From: Verrucomicrobiota bacterium | GTDB taxonomy: Bacteria > Verrucomicrobiota > Verrucomicrobiia > Verrucomicrobiales > Akkermansiaceae | Assembly (NCBI GenBank): GCA_030835305.1 | Contig: JAURPJ010000066.1 | Location: 1 to 64,000 of the forward strand | Direction: 5' to 3' | Length of the DNA: 64,000 nucleotides | Shown: one piece after another, positions 1,435 to 16,457 of the stretch | How the letters are laid out: every line of letters starts with the position of its first letter | Numbering within the stretch: position 1 is the first letter of the stretch | Position numbers and translations under genes: made by a program | Notes under the pieces: model-generated | The model's database searches: none | What the model saw: the letters and a program-made list of their open reading frames with translations, nothing else | Told to the model about the DNA's origin: nothing

Positions 1435-2880
1435 ATGAAAAACCGACGTGATTTTCTGTGGCAATCCGGCGGCGGTCTCGGCGGGATTGCCTTGTCATCT
1501 CTTCTCGGAGGCGAGGCACGTGGTGGCGGGGTGTTGCAGGAAGCGCATCATCGACCCAAGGCGAAGCGGGTGATCCAGCTTTTCATGGCAGGTGCAGCGA
1601 GTCACCTCGACCTTTTTGACTACAAGCCTGAGTTGGTGAAACGCCATGGTGAGAAGTCGGATTTCGGGGAGCACGTTGAAGCCTTCCAAAATGGTCTTGG
1701 TCCATGGAAAAAGCCGGTGTGGGAATTCTCTCCTTACGGGTCTTGTGGCAAGTTGCTTGGTGAGACCATTTCGCCTTTGGGTGATGTCGTTGATGAGATT
1801 GCCTTCGTCCACAATATGACGGGAAAGACCGGCGTTCACAGCCAAGCAACCTATCTGCAGGCCACGGGCTTTGACCGTCCCGGGTTTCCCGGCATGGGTT
1901 CGTGGGTGAGTTATGGATTGGGGAGCTTGAACGACAATCTCCCGACCTTCGTGGTTCTTCCCGACCATCGAGGCTATGCTTCCAACGGGCCCAAGAATTG
2001 GGCTTCCGCCTTTTTGCCGACCGTTCATCAAGGCACGATCATTCGCCCCGGAACAAGTGAGCCCATCACGCATCTCTACCCCCACGAAAGCGCGGAGTAT
2101 CTCACGCCGCAAGCTGAGAAAGATGCCAGATTCTTGCTCGAAAAATTGAACCGAAACTACGCGGAGCAACGTTCCGGTGATTCCCGCCTGGATGCCCGAA
2201 TCCAGAGTTATGAACTTGCGGCGCGAATGCAATTGGCCGCGCCCGAAGCACTCGATCTCGCGAAGGAGCCGGATTACATCAAATCAATGTATGGGCTATC
2301 TCCGGATGGCACCAAGTGGCCCAAGGAGATCAATTGGAAGGAAGAAGCCGATGCCTTTGGCCGGAAGTGTCTTGCGGCACGCCGGCTCTTGGAGCGCGGG
2401 GTGAAGTTCGTGCAGATTTGGTCGGGAAATGACAACGGATTTCCGCGGCGCAATTGGGATAGCCATGAGGATATTGGGCGTGATCACGGTCCGCTCTCGC
2501 GCGGCATGGCGATTGGGACTGCTGCTCTTATTAAGGATTTGAAGCAGCGAGGCATGCTCGAAGATACCGTGATTCTCTGGACCACCGAATTCGGGCGCAT
2601 GCCATCGACGCAAGGGAGCAAAGGGCGTGATCATAACCCGCACGTCTTTACCAACTGGCTTGCCGGGGGCGGGGTGCGTGGCGGGATCACTCACGGCGAA
2701 AGCGATGAGTGGGGTTACAAGCCGGCTGACCGGGATCACCCCACGCAGGTCTACGATATTCATGCCACCATGCTCCATCTTCTCGGAATCGATCACGAGA
2801 GATTGGTGTTCCGCAAGGATAGCATCGACCGTCGCCTCACTGATGTGCACGGTCGGGTGATTCGGGGAATTCTTGCTTAG
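1435..2880 (+). CDS. DUF1501 domain protein with twin-arginine signal
   Basis: 481 residues. I chose the ATG at 1435 because it opens directly onto a twin-arginine leader (MKNRRDFLWQSGGG, then a hydrophobic stretch) and sits 4 bp after the PSD1 stop; an upstream in-frame ATG at 1408 would overlap that gene. The body fits DUF1501, a member of the alkaline phosphatase/sulfatase superfold: FMAGAASHLDLFDYKP near the start, TTEFGRMPSTQG and GRDHNPHVFTNWLAGGG near the end. DUF1501 proteins are Tat-exported partners of PSD1 proteins in PVC bacteria; they are often annotated as sulfatase-like, but their activity is unproven. The 3' end overlaps the convergent beta-helix gene by 4 bp at the stop codons. 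Confidence 0.92.
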   Translation: MKNRRDFLWQSGGGLGGIALSSLLGGEARGGGVLQEAHHRPKAKRVIQLFMAGAASHLDLFDYKPELVKRHGEKSDFGEHVEAFQNGLGPWKKPVWEFSPYGSCGKLLGETISPLGDVVDEIAFVHNMTGKTGVHSQATYLQATGFDRPGFPGMGSWVSYGLGSLNDNLPTFVVLPDHRGYASNGPKNWASAFLPTVHQGTIIRPGTSEPITHLYPHESAEYLTPQAEKDARFLLEKLNRNYAEQRSGDSRLDARIQSYELAARMQLAAPEALDLAKEPDYIKSMYGLSPDGTKWPKEINWKEEADAFGRKCLAARRLLERGVKFVQIWSGNDNGFPRRNWDSHEDIGRDHGPLSRGMAIGTAALIKDLKQRGMLEDTVILWTTEFGRMPSTQGSKGRDHNPHVFTNWLAGGGVRGGITHGESDEWGYKPADRDHPTQVYDIHATMLHLLGIDHERLVFRKDSIDRRLTDVHGRVIRGILA

Positions 2881-4100
2881 CGGCTTTTAAATCCTGTGGT
2901 GATTTTCCAGCCGGGGTTTCCATTTGCTGAAAATTGGTAAGCGCCGACATCTTGGCGCTTCTCTCGGGGAGTTTTATTAAAGTCAACCAGGGTAAGGAAT
3001 TTGGGGTTGGCAACTTCAAGGAGAGGTGACTCGGGGGTTGGAAAAATTTCGAGGACTCCAGTGATGTTCGTACTTTTTGTGATTCCTTCAATTGCGGGAA
3101 TGCGGGGCTTGCTGGTCAGTGCGTTGTTGGCGATCACCACGGGACCGCTGACATTTTCCGGAGGAGAGATGCGGATTGAATGCCTGGAGAGGATGGTGTT
3201 GTGAACGATAGTGAGGTTGCCGACGATTGCGCTTTGGTGGTTTCGTGACGAAATGCCCTCGCCTCCGGTGTCAAAAATGATGTTATTGCGAATGATGGCG
3301 TCGGCGGCAGCCTGAATTCCATGATCACCGGTGTTCCAGATGACATTGCGTTCGATGATGTTCGGTGCTTTTCCGTCGGTGTCATAGACGATGATACCCG
3401 GATATTTGGTGTCGTGGATGACATTGTCGCGCACGATGTTTCCGTAACTGCCGTCTTTGAGTTTGACTCCGTCGCCCTGGCTCACAGGCCCCCCCTTTAA
3501 GTCGTGTATATAATTGTTTTCGATGATGGAGTTGAAAATGTAGCCGTTCGTGGAGCCGTCCGAATTGTTGTTGGAGCCGAGGTAAAACCCTTCGCCGTGG
3601 CCTCCGGTGTGGTGAATATGATTGTGGCGAAAGGTGAGGGATTCGTATTTTTCCCCCGGGTAGTTCGCGGTGACGGCAACGCCCCCGATGTGATGGATGT
3701 GGAGATTCTCCAGTGTGATGAACTTCGCGGGGTGCGGCCCTTTTTTGCCAATGCGAACAGCGGCGGAACCTCCCGTGATTTCGAGATCGCGAATGATGAG
3801 ATGCTGGCACCCGCCCAGGTTGATTGTGTTTTGGTTGGCGTCGGGGCGCTTGATGATCACTCGGGCATTCCTTGCTGCGCGGATCACAATGGGCTTTTTG
3901 GCGGAACCACGTTGCGAGATTTCCAGACGTCTTGAGTCCGAATAGATTCCCGCCTTGAGGACAATTTCATCACCAGGTTTGAGGGATCGGCCGCTCAGCG
4001 TTGAGAACCAATCGTCGGTTGGCGAAACGTTGACCGTTCCTCCCGAGAGAGCCAGCGCGGAGATAAACAAGGCTAGGGTGGCAAGAAGAGATGGTCTCAT
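2877..4100 (-). CDS. Secreted right-handed parallel beta-helix protein (possible polysaccharide lyase)
   Basis: 407 residues with an N-terminal signal peptide (MRPSLLATLALFISALALS). Residues about 35-80 (GDEIVLKAGIYSDSRRLEIS, KPIVIRAARNARVII) match the entry of PL6/chondroitinase-B-like beta-helices. The rest is a ladder of short repeats rich in asparagine and histidine (LIIRDLEITGG, LENLHIHHIGG, NNYIHDLKGG, NVIHDTKYPG, NIIFDTGGEG), typical of parallel beta-helix coils. It probably binds or cleaves an acidic polysaccharide outside the cytoplasm, but I cannot assign catalytic residues. It converges on the DUF1501 gene with overlapping stop codons, so there is no room for an intergenic terminator. 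Confidence 0.85.
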   Translation of the reverse strand: MRPSLLATLALFISALALSGGTVNVSPTDDWFSTLSGRSLKPGDEIVLKAGIYSDSRRLEISQRGSAKKPIVIRAARNARVIIKRPDANQNTINLGGCQHLIIRDLEITGGSAAVRIGKKGPHPAKFITLENLHIHHIGGVAVTANYPGEKYESLTFRHNHIHHTGGHGEGFYLGSNNNSDGSTNGYIFNSIIENNYIHDLKGGPVSQGDGVKLKDGSYGNIVRDNVIHDTKYPGIIVYDTDGKAPNIIERNVIWNTGDHGIQAAADAIIRNNIIFDTGGEGISSRNHQSAIVGNLTIVHNTILSRHSIRISPPENVSGPVVIANNALTSKPRIPAIEGITKSTNITGVLEIFPTPESPLLEVANPKFLTLVDFNKTPREKRQDVGAYQFSANGNPGWKITTGFKSR

Positions 4101-4192
4101 TTGATAATCAAGAGTTCCTGTGCAATCTATGAAAGCATAGGAAGTAACGAGAGGGGTAGAAGGCAGATATTAGAGCGTCCGTCTTTCCCGGG

Positions 4193-4669
4193 CTACTCGA
4201 TTATTTGCAAAATCAATCGAATGAAGCGTTGGTCGTCATCGTTCAGACTTTTATCATGTGCTACCTTGATGATAGATAGGTTTGGTGAAACGTTTTCTTT
4301 GGTGATGACGCTTCCTTGGCTCCAGGGAAAAGTTTCTTTTTTAATTTTGATGGTGATGAGATCGGTCGTTGATTGCCGGTCGGTGGAAGCGGTGATGGGT
4401 ACGGTATAAACTCCGGGTGGAGTGGGAGGAGTTCCGGAAATTCCACTTTGGAAAGGTGGCTGAGGATTTCCCTTTCTTGGAATGATGGCGAGCTCGGCTG
4501 GATTCGATGATCTTTCGCTGTAGTTCGGAGTGCCCTTCCCGGAGGGTACAACCGCAAGAGGCGACAGCGGCGGCCCGCTTTTTTCTAGAGCGAGGAACGG
4601 GCCTGCCGGGCGCTGGCCGGTGTAACCAGCTTTGGTGAAAAGCCGTTTTACCCGCCGGGCTTCAATCAA
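4193..4669 (-). pseudogene. Remnant of an Ig-like (He_PIG type) surface protein
   Basis: An open frame of about 158 codons that begins only at a TTG and has no convincing start. The stretch SGISGTPPTPPGVYTVPITA, preceded by NPAELAIIP and followed by DLITIKI, matches the putative Ig (He_PIG) repeat seen in large bacterial surface proteins. About 50 further codons of plausible protein follow to the stop. No signal peptide or upstream exported domain can be joined to it, so I treat it as a gene fragment. It may be a short intact ORF, but the absence of a start and the decayed surroundings argue against that. Confidence 0.45.
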
Positions 4670-13569: not shown

Positions 13570-13738
13570 ACAGGGAGATTGAAGGAAGATTGACTCGTTC
13601 TCCAGTTTGGAGTTTTTGTTTATGGGGGGAATTCCCAGCTGAAACGTGTCCTCCCCTTGGGGTGGAGGCGCACTTTGTCAAAAAATTCGGGAAGAAACTC
13701 GCCTCTGCATCGCTCCAATGAACAATCCTGCCATTCCA

Positions 13739-15958
13739 ATGAAGCACCGATTTCTCATTTTCAACCTAACTGTGTGCCTCGTGCCTCTTGTCTTGGCGCA
13801 AGATCCCTTCGGCGAATCGGCGTTTCTAAAGAAGGAAACCACCGCAACGATCAAGCCGGAGGCGAGTCAGATCCAGCCGGGGGATTTTTTCAAGGTGGCG
13901 TTCACCCTGGATCTCCAGCCTAAATACCATGCCTACTTTAAAAGTGCGGGATCCGTTGGTGATCCTCCGGCGGTCGAGTGGGAGCTTCCTGCCGGATTTA
14001 CGGCGGGTGAATTGCAGTTTCCGCTTCCCAAGGCTTTCAAATCGACAGCGACAGGGGTCGAGGTTGTAGGTTATGGTTATGACGGGAGGGTGACCTTTGT
14101 GACCGAGATCGTGGTCGATGAGAGTCTCGAGCCGGGCAAGGAGTTTACCATCAAAGGTAACTTCAATTGGCAGGAATGTGATGAGACCTGCATTCTTGGA
14201 GACAAGGATTTCTCATTCTCGGTCAAAACCGGCAATGAGACCGTGATGGTCGAAGCTGACGAGGAGTTCTTCCAGGAAGCCCGCATGAACCTGCCGAGTG
14301 ATAGTTCGGCGTGGGGTTTCCTCGCGACTGAGAAAAGTAACGTCATCACCCTGAAGGCCATTTTTCCGGAAGGTTTGACCTTTAGCGAGCCGGTCTATTT
14401 CTTCTCGACCGACAAGCAGATCGACTCGCAGGCGGACCAGGAAGTGGAGATCGGTGAGACTGAGATTACCGTCACTCTGAAAAGAAACGAAGGAAACGAA
14501 GAACTCTTTATTGAGGCTGGAAAGGTTCGGGATAAATTATCGGGGCTCCTGACTGTTCAGGCTGATTACGGGCGCATTGGGTTGGGGGTCGATGCGCCCT
14601 TCATTCCTGATGCCGATGTCCAGATGGATGGTCCCGGTGAAAAAGTGATCAAGGCATCCAAGGAAGACCGTGAAGCAGGTCTTGCGCTCTACGACGTCGA
14701 TGTGCGGCCTGAGGTCGTTCTCTTGGGTGGGGCCAAGGAAAAGGAGGTCACTTTCATTTCATCGCTTGGGCTGGTGTTCCTTGGAGGTTTGATTCTCAAC
14801 CTAATGCCCTGTGTTTTTCCGGTGCTGGGCCTCAAAATCATGGGCTTCGTTTCGCAGGCCGGTGAAGACGAGGATAAGATCAAGGTGCACGGCTTGGTAT
14901 TTGGTCTCGGACTGCTGATCACAATGTGGATCCTGGCTGCTTTCATTATCGCGCTCGAGTTGGACTGGGGCCAGCAGTTGGCCAACCCAGTCTTTCTTGG
15001 AACCATGATTATCGTTTTCTTCCTGATGGGTCTCAATCTTTACGGAGTATTTGAAATTGGCACGAGCATGACCAGCGTGGGCGGCGAGCTTCAGGCTAAG
15101 AAAGGCTACTCCGGGTCCTTCTTTTCCGGAGCACTGACAACTCTCGTGGCGACACCTTGTTCGGGGCCATTCCTCGGAGCGGTGATGGCTTTTGCGCTTT
15201 CTCAGGATGACAAGGCGATTCAGTTTTCGGTCTTCACCGTCTTTGGGTTGGGAATTGCCTCACCCTATATCCTGTTGTCCTTCTTCCCTGCCCTCATCAA
15301 GAAGTTGCCACGTCCGGGAGCGTGGATGGAAACCTTCAAGCAGGTCATGGCCTTCTTTGTTTTTGCAACCGCGGTCTTCTTTATGAAAGGCTACCTCAAG
15401 TTGGTGGGCGACGATCACTTCAACGTCTTCCTCTTTGCCCTGTGTTTGATTGGTCTCGGAGTTTATATCTACGGTCGCTATGGCAATCAGGCTGTCGAAA
15501 AGACCAAGCGAGTTGTGACGGGTTTCGGGCTTGCCGGCTTGATGACGGTGGGTGGTATCGCTTGGGCTTACTCGACGGCGAAGCCGCCCGAGCCGGGGTT
15601 GGCTTGGAACGAGTGGTATCCCGGAATTGTGGAGCAATCGCGTTCCAAGAAACGAATAATATGGGTCGATTACACCGCCGATTGGTGAGCGACTTGCAAA
15701 GTGAACGAGAGCCGTGTGTTCTCGAATCAGAAAGTTCTCGATCGGTTGGAAGAGCTGGATGTTCTCCTTATAAAGGCGGACAACACCGACAAGCTACAGT
15801 CCATCAATGATGATCTTAAGCGCTTTGGTCGTGCCAATCTGCCCGTAAATCTGGTGGTGCCGGCCGATCCCGATGCTCCAATCATTGTCATGCCGGAAGT
15901 CTTCGGGCCGGACGATGCCCTGCAAGCCCTTAAGGAAGCGGAATACCTCGGCAAATAA
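13739..15958 (+). CDS. dsbD: DsbD-type thiol:disulfide interchange protein, predicted selenoprotein (UGA at codon 650)
   Basis: 739 residues if the in-frame UGA at 15686-15688 is read as selenocysteine; otherwise the protein stops at residue 649 before its thioredoxin domain. Order: signal peptide (MKHRFLIFNLTVCLVPLVLA), a periplasmic alpha domain with a C-x3-C pair (WQECDETC, Cys147 and Cys151), a polytopic CcdA-like membrane domain (about 338-620) with NLMPCVFPVLGLK (Cys358) and VATPCSGPFLGAV (Cys474), then a thioredoxin domain. At that domain the sequence reads VDYTADW-UGA-ATCKVNESRVF, where relatives have ADWCxxCK, so UGA replaces the first redox Cys and Cys653 is kept. About 90 conserved codons follow to TAA. 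DsbD passes electrons from cytoplasmic thioredoxin across the membrane. I prefer the start at 13739 for its signal peptide; 13718 is possible. Confidence 0.85.
15706..15724 (+). promoter_or_regulatory. Predicted SECIS element (selenocysteine insertion hairpin)
   Basis: Within the DsbD coding sequence, the stem CGAGAGC (15706-15712) pairs with GTTCTCG (15718-15724): seven pairs, one of them G-U. It closes a five-base loop, CGTGT, with G in its second position. The stem begins 17 nt after the UGA, and the loop G is 26 nt from its last base. This fits the general bacterial SECIS layout: a short stem, a small loop with an early G, about 16-37 nt from UGA. SelB binding would recruit Sec-tRNA here. 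It is predicted by eye only, without folding energies. Confidence 0.65.
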
Positions 15959-15977: not shown

Positions 15978-16457
15978 ATGATTTTTTTCCCAATCATGGT
16001 TGCGGGTCTGTTGGTGGTGGTCGCTGCGATGTGGGCAAACCTCGATTTTCTGAACGAAAAACTGCTTCGTGCAAAACCACCGCTTTGCGCCCCTCCCTAC
16101 GAGGTGGCATGGCTTCCCTGGAAGCCGGGGTTGGTGGAGTTTGCCAGGAATGAAGAGAGAATAGTTTGGCTGCAATTCGCTTCAGACTGGGATATGACGG
16201 GTCACGTTAATGAAAAGAGAGTTTTCTCTGATGACGATCTCCTCCAGACCTTGGCGAAGCACCGGGTCTTCTCAATCAAGGCAGACCATACGAATCTCGA
16301 CGAAGAGATCACAAAGGAACTTAAAAAATATGGGAGGTTTTCGATTCCAACGAACCTCATCTTTCCGGCAGATCCGGAAAAGGAAATGATTGTCCTTCCC
16401 GAGTTGCTAACGCCGGAAATTGTGATGGCAGCTTTGAATCAGGCGGCGGGAAGGTAG
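15978..16457 (+). CDS. Membrane-anchored thioredoxin-like protein lacking redox residues
   Basis: 159 residues. I chose the ATG at 15978, 19 bp after the DsbD stop, because it opens a transmembrane helix (MIFFPIMVAGLLVVVAAMWA); an upstream start would overlap DsbD. Residues 45-159 are a clear paralog of the DsbD thioredoxin domain: WLPWKPGLVEFARNEERIVW against WNEWYPGIVEQSRSKKRIIW, then DWDMTGHVNEKRVF against DWUATCKVNESRVF, then a shared NL-x-PADP and LPEL/MPEV ending. The redox pair is gone: Asp72 stands for U/Cys and Gly75 for Cys. It faces the periplasm if the helix is an N-terminal anchor. It may be a binding or regulatory partner of the reductase rather than an enzyme; that is inference. 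Confidence 0.8.
   Translation: MIFFPIMVAGLLVVVAAMWANLDFLNEKLLRAKPPLCAPPYEVAWLPWKPGLVEFARNEERIVWLQFASDWDMTGHVNEKRVFSDDDLLQTLAKHRVFSIKADHTNLDEEITKELKKYGRFSIPTNLIFPADPEKEMIVLPELLTPEIVMAALNQAAGR

Follow-up and report, generated by a model that had tools for sequence, protein, structure and literature searches.

A predicted selenocysteine-containing DsbD with a conserved SECIS-like hairpin in Akkermansiaceae (Verrucomicrobiota)

Introduction

DsbD is a membrane protein that carries electrons across the inner membrane, and in E. coli and other bacteria it is a main electron source for the reduction of periplasmic thiols. The DsbD proteins of E. coli and Neisseria (structures of the C-terminal domain: 2fwe-2fwh, 1uc7, 1vrs, 6dnl, 6dnu) have an alpha, a membrane, and a gamma domain, each with a redox pair. 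The protein described here has the same three domains with a redox pair in each, and its gamma domain matches DsbD C-terminal domains by profile and by fold. It differs at the first redox position of the gamma domain, where the proteins from E. coli and Neisseria have Cys and where selenocysteine (Sec) is predicted here. The protein is outside the subfamily described by the NCBIfam dsbD model PRK00293 (118.8 bits compared to a cut-off of 330).

The CDD model cd02953 is, as we take it, the model for the DsbD gamma domain. Among reads from Global Ocean Sampling (GOS), a predicted selenoprotein family named "Trx-like 2 (Thiol disulfide interchange protein)" was assigned to cd02953, with the motif UxxC and 22 sequences (PMC2398784, Table 2). 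It shares the UxxC motif (here U657-A-T-C660) and the thiol:disulfide interchange type with our protein. That table gives read counts, whereas our case is a full-length gene from a defined lineage, followed by a covarying hairpin in a genome that has the sel genes. A Sec-containing "thiol:disulfide interchange protein" from Geobacter and Syntrophus, with three listed, is found in the consulted part of PMC1794560, and such a protein with UxxC is listed under PF13098 in that of PMC13188914. By description, on which this comparison is based, the Geobacter/Syntrophus protein is of the same Sec thiol:disulfide interchange type and has UxxC, but it is assigned to PF13098 rather than to PF13899 as here. 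Sec thiol:disulfide interchange proteins also recur in the consulted parts of two reviews (PMC9312934, PMC13188914).

The best NCBIfam match is TsoB (NF045694), a rhodanese/DsbD fusion-like selenoprotein, which aligns with residues 342-700, that is the membrane and gamma parts. With 175.5 bits compared to a cut-off of 805, our protein is not a member of that family. TsoB has two Sec in a UxxxxU motif and is the only mention of DsbD in the consulted part of PMC13188914. Our protein, in contrast, has one UGA and a DsbD_N domain, and Pfam detects no rhodanese domain.

The words DsbD and Verrucomicrob do not occur in PMC12013277, PMC2398784, PMC5029168, PMC9312934, and PMC1794560, as far as these texts were available; likewise, Verrucomicrob is absent from PMC13188914 and DsbD from PMC1088965. 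Judged by listing, no paper on a verrucomicrobial Sec-DsbD was found in the open-licence literature. Sec-containing thiol:disulfide interchange proteins have thus been predicted since early surveys, and the gene described here very probably codes for a real selenoprotein of this known general kind. What appears to be new within the literature searched is the full three-domain Sec-DsbD, its host clade, its covarying hairpin, and the fact that no further DsbD_TM protein was found in its genome.

The dsbD gene and its domains

The window, by which we mean the whole 64,000 nt stretch of DNA that was analysed, is located on contig C48 of a 4.45 Mb genome (133 contigs, 96.89% complete). All features of the window described below are on the forward strand. 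The dsbD gene (13718..15958) has 746 codons when TGA is translated as U. Its start codon is ambiguous, being either ATG 13718 or ATG 13739, the latter of which precedes a hydrophobic leader. Pfam assigns DsbD_N, DsbD_TM, and Thioredoxin_7 to this one chain, each above its cut-off, and the translation thus has the three-domain architecture of DsbD. The alpha domain (13871..14215; residues 52-166; DsbD_N, PF11412, 43.1 bits with a cut-off of 25) carries C154 and C158. The membrane (beta) domain (14765..15388; residues 350-557; DsbD_TM, PF02683) carries C365 in an MPC motif and C481 in a TPC motif. The gamma domain (15602..15859; residues 629-714; Thioredoxin_7, PF13899) carries U657-A-T-C660. 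A redox pair is thus found in each domain (C154/C158, C365/C481, U657/C660), the pairing being assigned on the assumption that it follows that of E. coli DsbD.

The sequence-only reading had reported a UGA in place of the first redox cysteine of the thioredoxin motif, followed by about 90 codons of conserved sequence. This was reproduced: TGA at 15686..15688 is in frame with the upstream DsbD sequence, reads ADW-UGA-ATCK, and is followed by 89 codons up to TAA at 15956-15958. The predicted Sec657 replaces the first Cys of CxxC, and Cys660, the second residue of the UxxC motif, is encoded by TGC (15695..15697). When the UGA is left unread, as in the mechanical list of open reading frames, dsbD ends at residue 656 and the gamma domain is hidden.

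The assignment of the gamma domain was examined further by profile and structure comparison. A gamma profile matched DsbD chains in the PDB (best E-value 1.9e-10), with the UGA column aligned to the first Cys of WCVACK in DsbD; phmmer with the whole protein against the PDB gave no match at E 0.001. The gamma fragment was also modelled with AlphaFold, with Cys in place of Sec (mean pLDDT 86). In this model, residue 657 is immediately ahead of a helix (residues 52-61 of the model), which is where thioredoxins have their active site. The ten best Foldseek matches of this model are DsbD chains, identified by their titles or, for 1vrs and 7aye, by the name of the molecule, and the top ones are DsbD C-terminal domains.

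Directly after dsbD, a small protein of the thioredoxin type is encoded (15978-16457; Thioredoxin_7 by Pfam), the N-terminus of which is hydrophobic. It is 42% identical to the gamma domain and represents a tandem duplicate of it that has degenerated, with WDMTGH in place of WUATCK so that both redox residues are lost. Among the UGA loci, for which up to 1500 bases after dsbD were covered (fewer in some cases), similar duplicates were limited to L022, L031, and L041, together with the duplicate records L073 and L081. Elsewhere in the genome, a separate frame of 349 codons (L072, G000:C108:6340-6948) resembles the N-terminal (alpha) part of DsbD alone.

The codon at the redox site among relatives

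A search of 195 genomes from the same family gave a match in 192, and among the matches listed there were 37 with a single TGA. In 36 of these 37, the TGA is exactly at the catalytic Cys codon, which bears out the earlier argument that its position is not due to chance. All 37 were extracted together with 13 stop-free copies (the 11 best-scoring and two others). The first redox codon (Cys1) is TGA in 36 of the 50 extracted copies (including that from the window) and TGC or TGT in 14, a ratio which is a product of the selection, as the many lower-scoring stop-free matches, mostly starting only around residue 340, were left out. Relatives thus differ at this codon, with UGA in some and Cys in others, a comparison that had been proposed as a check, and UGA stands at a Cys position as expected for selenoproteins. 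The second Cys is retained in all 50 copies, and the UGA copies extend down to 40% sequence identity. Two candidates with one TGA each (G117/L067 and G246/L171) were rejected as UGA cases because they have Cys at the site (TGC in G117/L067).

A TGA copy is present in 24 of the 27 genomes of the genus represented in the window; the matches in the remaining genomes, G134, G138, and G157, were weaker and were outside the extraction. The closest named genomes are Akkermansiaceae/Verrucomicrobiales MAGs with 86-97% identity in the DsbD protein. Of the 80 named contigs, TGA is found in 19 and TGC or TGT in the other 61. Sixteen of the 19 represent genomes already contained in the set of 195, and the additional ones are L090 (Kiritimatiellia), L094, and L124. 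One of the 19 TGA carriers has been isolated in culture: Persicirhabdus sediminis KCTC 22039 (G014; L087, L046), which has SelA and a tRNA-Sec match. A draw of 387 genomes across the phylum, in which up to two candidates per genome were scored, gave three with TGA among the matches listed, at the site in G000 and G014 and elsewhere in G246. The Sec form is thus common in the genus and also occurs in four further genera of this family; elsewhere it seems to be rare.

A SECIS-like hairpin downstream of the UGA

Local recoding, which the sequence-only reading considered necessary, is supported by a conserved hairpin. This predicted bacterial SECIS element (bSECIS; 15706..15724) consists of a 7 bp stem (15706-15712/15718-15724) and the loop CGUGU (15713-15717). 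It was characterised by minimum free energy (MFE) folding, consensus folding, covariation, codon freezing, and synonymous shuffling. The consulted part of PMC13188914 gives the limits for a bSECIS as a loop of 3-9 nt, a stem of 4-16 bp, a distance of 16-37 nt from UGA to loop, G within the first two loop positions, and an MFE of -7.5 or below. The hairpin in the window fits this model, with a 5 nt loop that starts 24 nt past the UGA, 7 bp, and -10.0 kcal/mol when the 48 nt from the UGA are folded (-10.2 without the UGA). As a single sequence, its fold energy is ordinary (z -0.59).

Among the 31 distinct UGA sequences (36 genes), 94.0% of the 217 cells are paired, and 13 cells are changed on both sides, compared to 3.0 in shuffled alignments, a value reached by none of 500. 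Compensatory changes are C-G for U-A at columns 21/39 (7 distinct sequences) and G-C for C-G at columns 27/33 (6). Of five covariation measures, none of the 500 shuffles matches three (the paired cells, the cells with changes on both sides, and the covariation score); the remaining two do not exceed the shuffles (2 vs. 1.7 double-change pairs, 7 vs. 7.3 further pair types). When the partner is slid by 1-3 columns, pairing falls to 30-70%, and RNAalifold recovers the same helix as consensus. The 14 Cys copies, by comparison, have 28.6% paired cells, and as a group they lack the hairpin.

The bSECIS shape is found in 31 of 36 UGA sequences, compared to 7.9 expected from synonymous shuffling, and the shape together with the energy limit in 27 (2.1 expected); 5 of 36 fail the former and 9 the latter. 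For the 14 Cys sequences, the corresponding numbers are 4 (2.0 expected) and 1 (0.6 expected). Codon choice in the stem is frozen: GAG in 36/36 (compared to 45% in the rest of these genes), TTC in 35/35 (58%), CGT in 30/32 (19%), and GTG in 29/33 (29%), although the small probabilities calculated from such counts overstate the significance because related sequences are not independent.

The DsbD of L090, encoded within the match at 2127-4238 and with UGA at Cys1, has a fitting hairpin of 6 bp, the loop of which is likewise CGUGU and lies at a distance of 23 nt from the UGA. The stem, however, is not the same and is shifted by one base relative to the codons, which argues that the RNA rather than the peptide has been kept. 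L094 and L124, which are UGA carriers outside the extracted set, have no hairpin that fits the bSECIS model and are therefore weaker candidates.

Selection downstream of the UGA

From codon +13 after the UGA to the end of the gene, dN/dS is 0.05-0.07 (33-37 synonymous and 14-17 nonsynonymous changes) compared to L023-L028, six relatives that are mutually close. For the 300 codons upstream of the UGA, the corresponding values are 0.016-0.021. By these estimates, the gamma domain is constrained by purifying selection, less so than the membrane part. The value for the nearest relative, L022 (0.47), is based on five changes, which are too few, and dS is saturated for the more distant L029-L037.

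Selenocysteine machinery

A search for selA, selB, selC, and selD had been suggested as a check, and all four are present in the genome. SelA (415.1 bits), SelB (317.7 bits), and SelD (385.6 bits) are above their curated cut-offs. The selD gene (L018 1480-2430, G000:C27) is itself predicted to code for a selenoprotein, with an in-frame UGA in SCGG-UGA-ASK. The tRNA-Sec is detected by the Rfam model (52.9 bits, cut-off 47) and is also called by ARAGORN with anticodon UCA. Among 14 control genomes, the Rfam model also gives a match over the cut-off in 5 (SelA in 2 of 14) and is thus soft evidence for other genomes; for this reason, the call in the genome under study also relies on ARAGORN.

SelA is found in 31 of the 36 UGA genomes (missing in five) and in 4 of the 14 Cys genomes (Fisher p 0.00018, uncorrected for kinship). 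With strict filters (E ≤ 1e-8), a tRNA-Sec match is present in 25 of 36 UGA genomes and 5 of 14 Cys genomes, so that a match over the cut-off is missing in 11 UGA genomes. Three UGA MAGs (G109, G110, and G095; 83-86% complete) show neither SelA nor tRNA-Sec. For the link between UGA and SelA, which is clear in the raw counts, four independent pairs are left once kinship is removed, too few to reach 0.05 (p 0.25-1); on average, 2.3 pairs differ in the same way, 0.5 in the opposite way, and 1.1 show no difference.

Gene tree

A quick tree was computed with the site masked from 93 sequences (the 50 extracted copies, 18 of the 80 named loci, and 25 of the 28 loci L153-L180). On this tree, the distribution of Sec and Cys requires five changes, at least four of which are forced by the starred branches. 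The main Sec-type group has 45 rows, 37 with UGA and 8 with Cys. The latter include six genomes from the family (G004, G005, G017, G018, G029, G041; 85-93% complete), of which G041 has SelA and the other five lack it. Several exchanges between the Sec and the Cys form are thus seen on the tree, with gain and loss indistinguishable.

The other two Cys rows are from Pirellulaceae (Planctomycetota; L135 and L141), whose Cys-type DsbD nests within the Akkermansiaceae Sec-type group on the quick tree. This suggests either transfer between phyla or shared ancestry.

Proposed mechanism and alternative explanations

The prediction of a selenoprotein by the sequence-only reading is strongly supported by the sequence evidence. 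We consider it nearly certain that dsbD encodes a full DsbD electron transporter with the gamma motif U-A-T-C, in which Sec would be inserted at the UGA. SelB and Sec-tRNA would use the hairpin to insert Sec at 15686-15688, resulting in a protein of 746 residues. Electrons would pass from cytoplasmic thioredoxin to C365/C481 in the membrane domain, then to U657-C660, to C154/C158 in the alpha domain, and finally to periplasmic substrates, a relay order which we assume to be that of E. coli DsbD. That the predicted Sec-DsbD would deliver cytoplasmic electrons to the periplasm is thus proposed from its architecture. According to general selenium chemistry, a motif with Sec at its nucleophilic, N-terminal position should exchange faster and be more resistant to overoxidation. 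The full-length Sec protein, and an effect on redox potential and rate as envisaged in the sequence-only reading, are predictions from the gene sequence. If Sec were not inserted, codon 656 would be the last one translated, and the product would be an alpha-beta protein lacking gamma.

No other match to the DsbD_TM family was found in the genome, which is 96.9% complete so that it may have an unseen Cys paralogue. A search of the genome with the whole protein gave, besides dsbD, only the downstream gamma-like copy and the frame resembling the N-domain. Because a second DsbD_TM protein was not found, the relay is probably selenium dependent, and periplasmic reduction in this organism may thus depend on selenium. 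A stronger version is that the sole route of the DsbD/CcdA family runs via Sec, that periplasmic disulfide reduction and its dependents, for example cytochrome c maturation, are obligately tied to selenium, and that a lack of selenium switches the relay off by truncation at the UGA ahead of gamma. This we propose only tentatively and consider rather doubtful.

A related possibility, compatible with the Sec reading, is that the UGA acts as a switch, with a functional truncated alpha-beta DsbD and a gamma domain made conditionally, for example according to selenium supply. Termination at UGA competes with Sec insertion, and a Cys-type backup was not found in the genome, both of which would fit such a switch. 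Purifying selection over gamma, on the other hand, shows that the full-length product matters, and a functional short product seems unlikely to us.

It is highly improbable that the UGA is read as Cys or Trp, either by a genome-wide code change or by an unusual tRNA. Relatives without TGA do carry Cys, as this explanation would have it. However, SelA, SelB, SelD, and tRNA-Sec are present, and the hairpin accompanies UGA codons, not Cys codons. UGA is also an ordinary stop elsewhere in the window, as had been stated: when the window was divided mechanically, without gene curation, into non-overlapping frames from stop to stop, 12 of the 27 frames with 250 codons or more end in TGA, with that of dsbD included. 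A genome-wide code change is thus rejected.

A nonsense mutation or sequencing error, with the gene broken or misread, has next to no probability and is rejected: although most genomes are MAGs and three UGA genomes show neither SelA nor tRNA-Sec, the same codon is conserved in divergent copies and in the cultured isolate, selection continues past the TGA, and the hairpin is conserved.

Implications

Selenocysteine insertion at the UGA, which we prefer, has a consequence for annotation, as reading by the standard code cuts such genes at residue 656 and conceals the gamma domain. The occurrence of Sec and Cys forms of one gene, together with a cultured carrier of the Sec form, makes the contribution of Sec to the relay step testable. 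As the only DsbD/CcdA-type protein found, a Sec-DsbD would tie selenium supply to the redox balance of the cell envelope.
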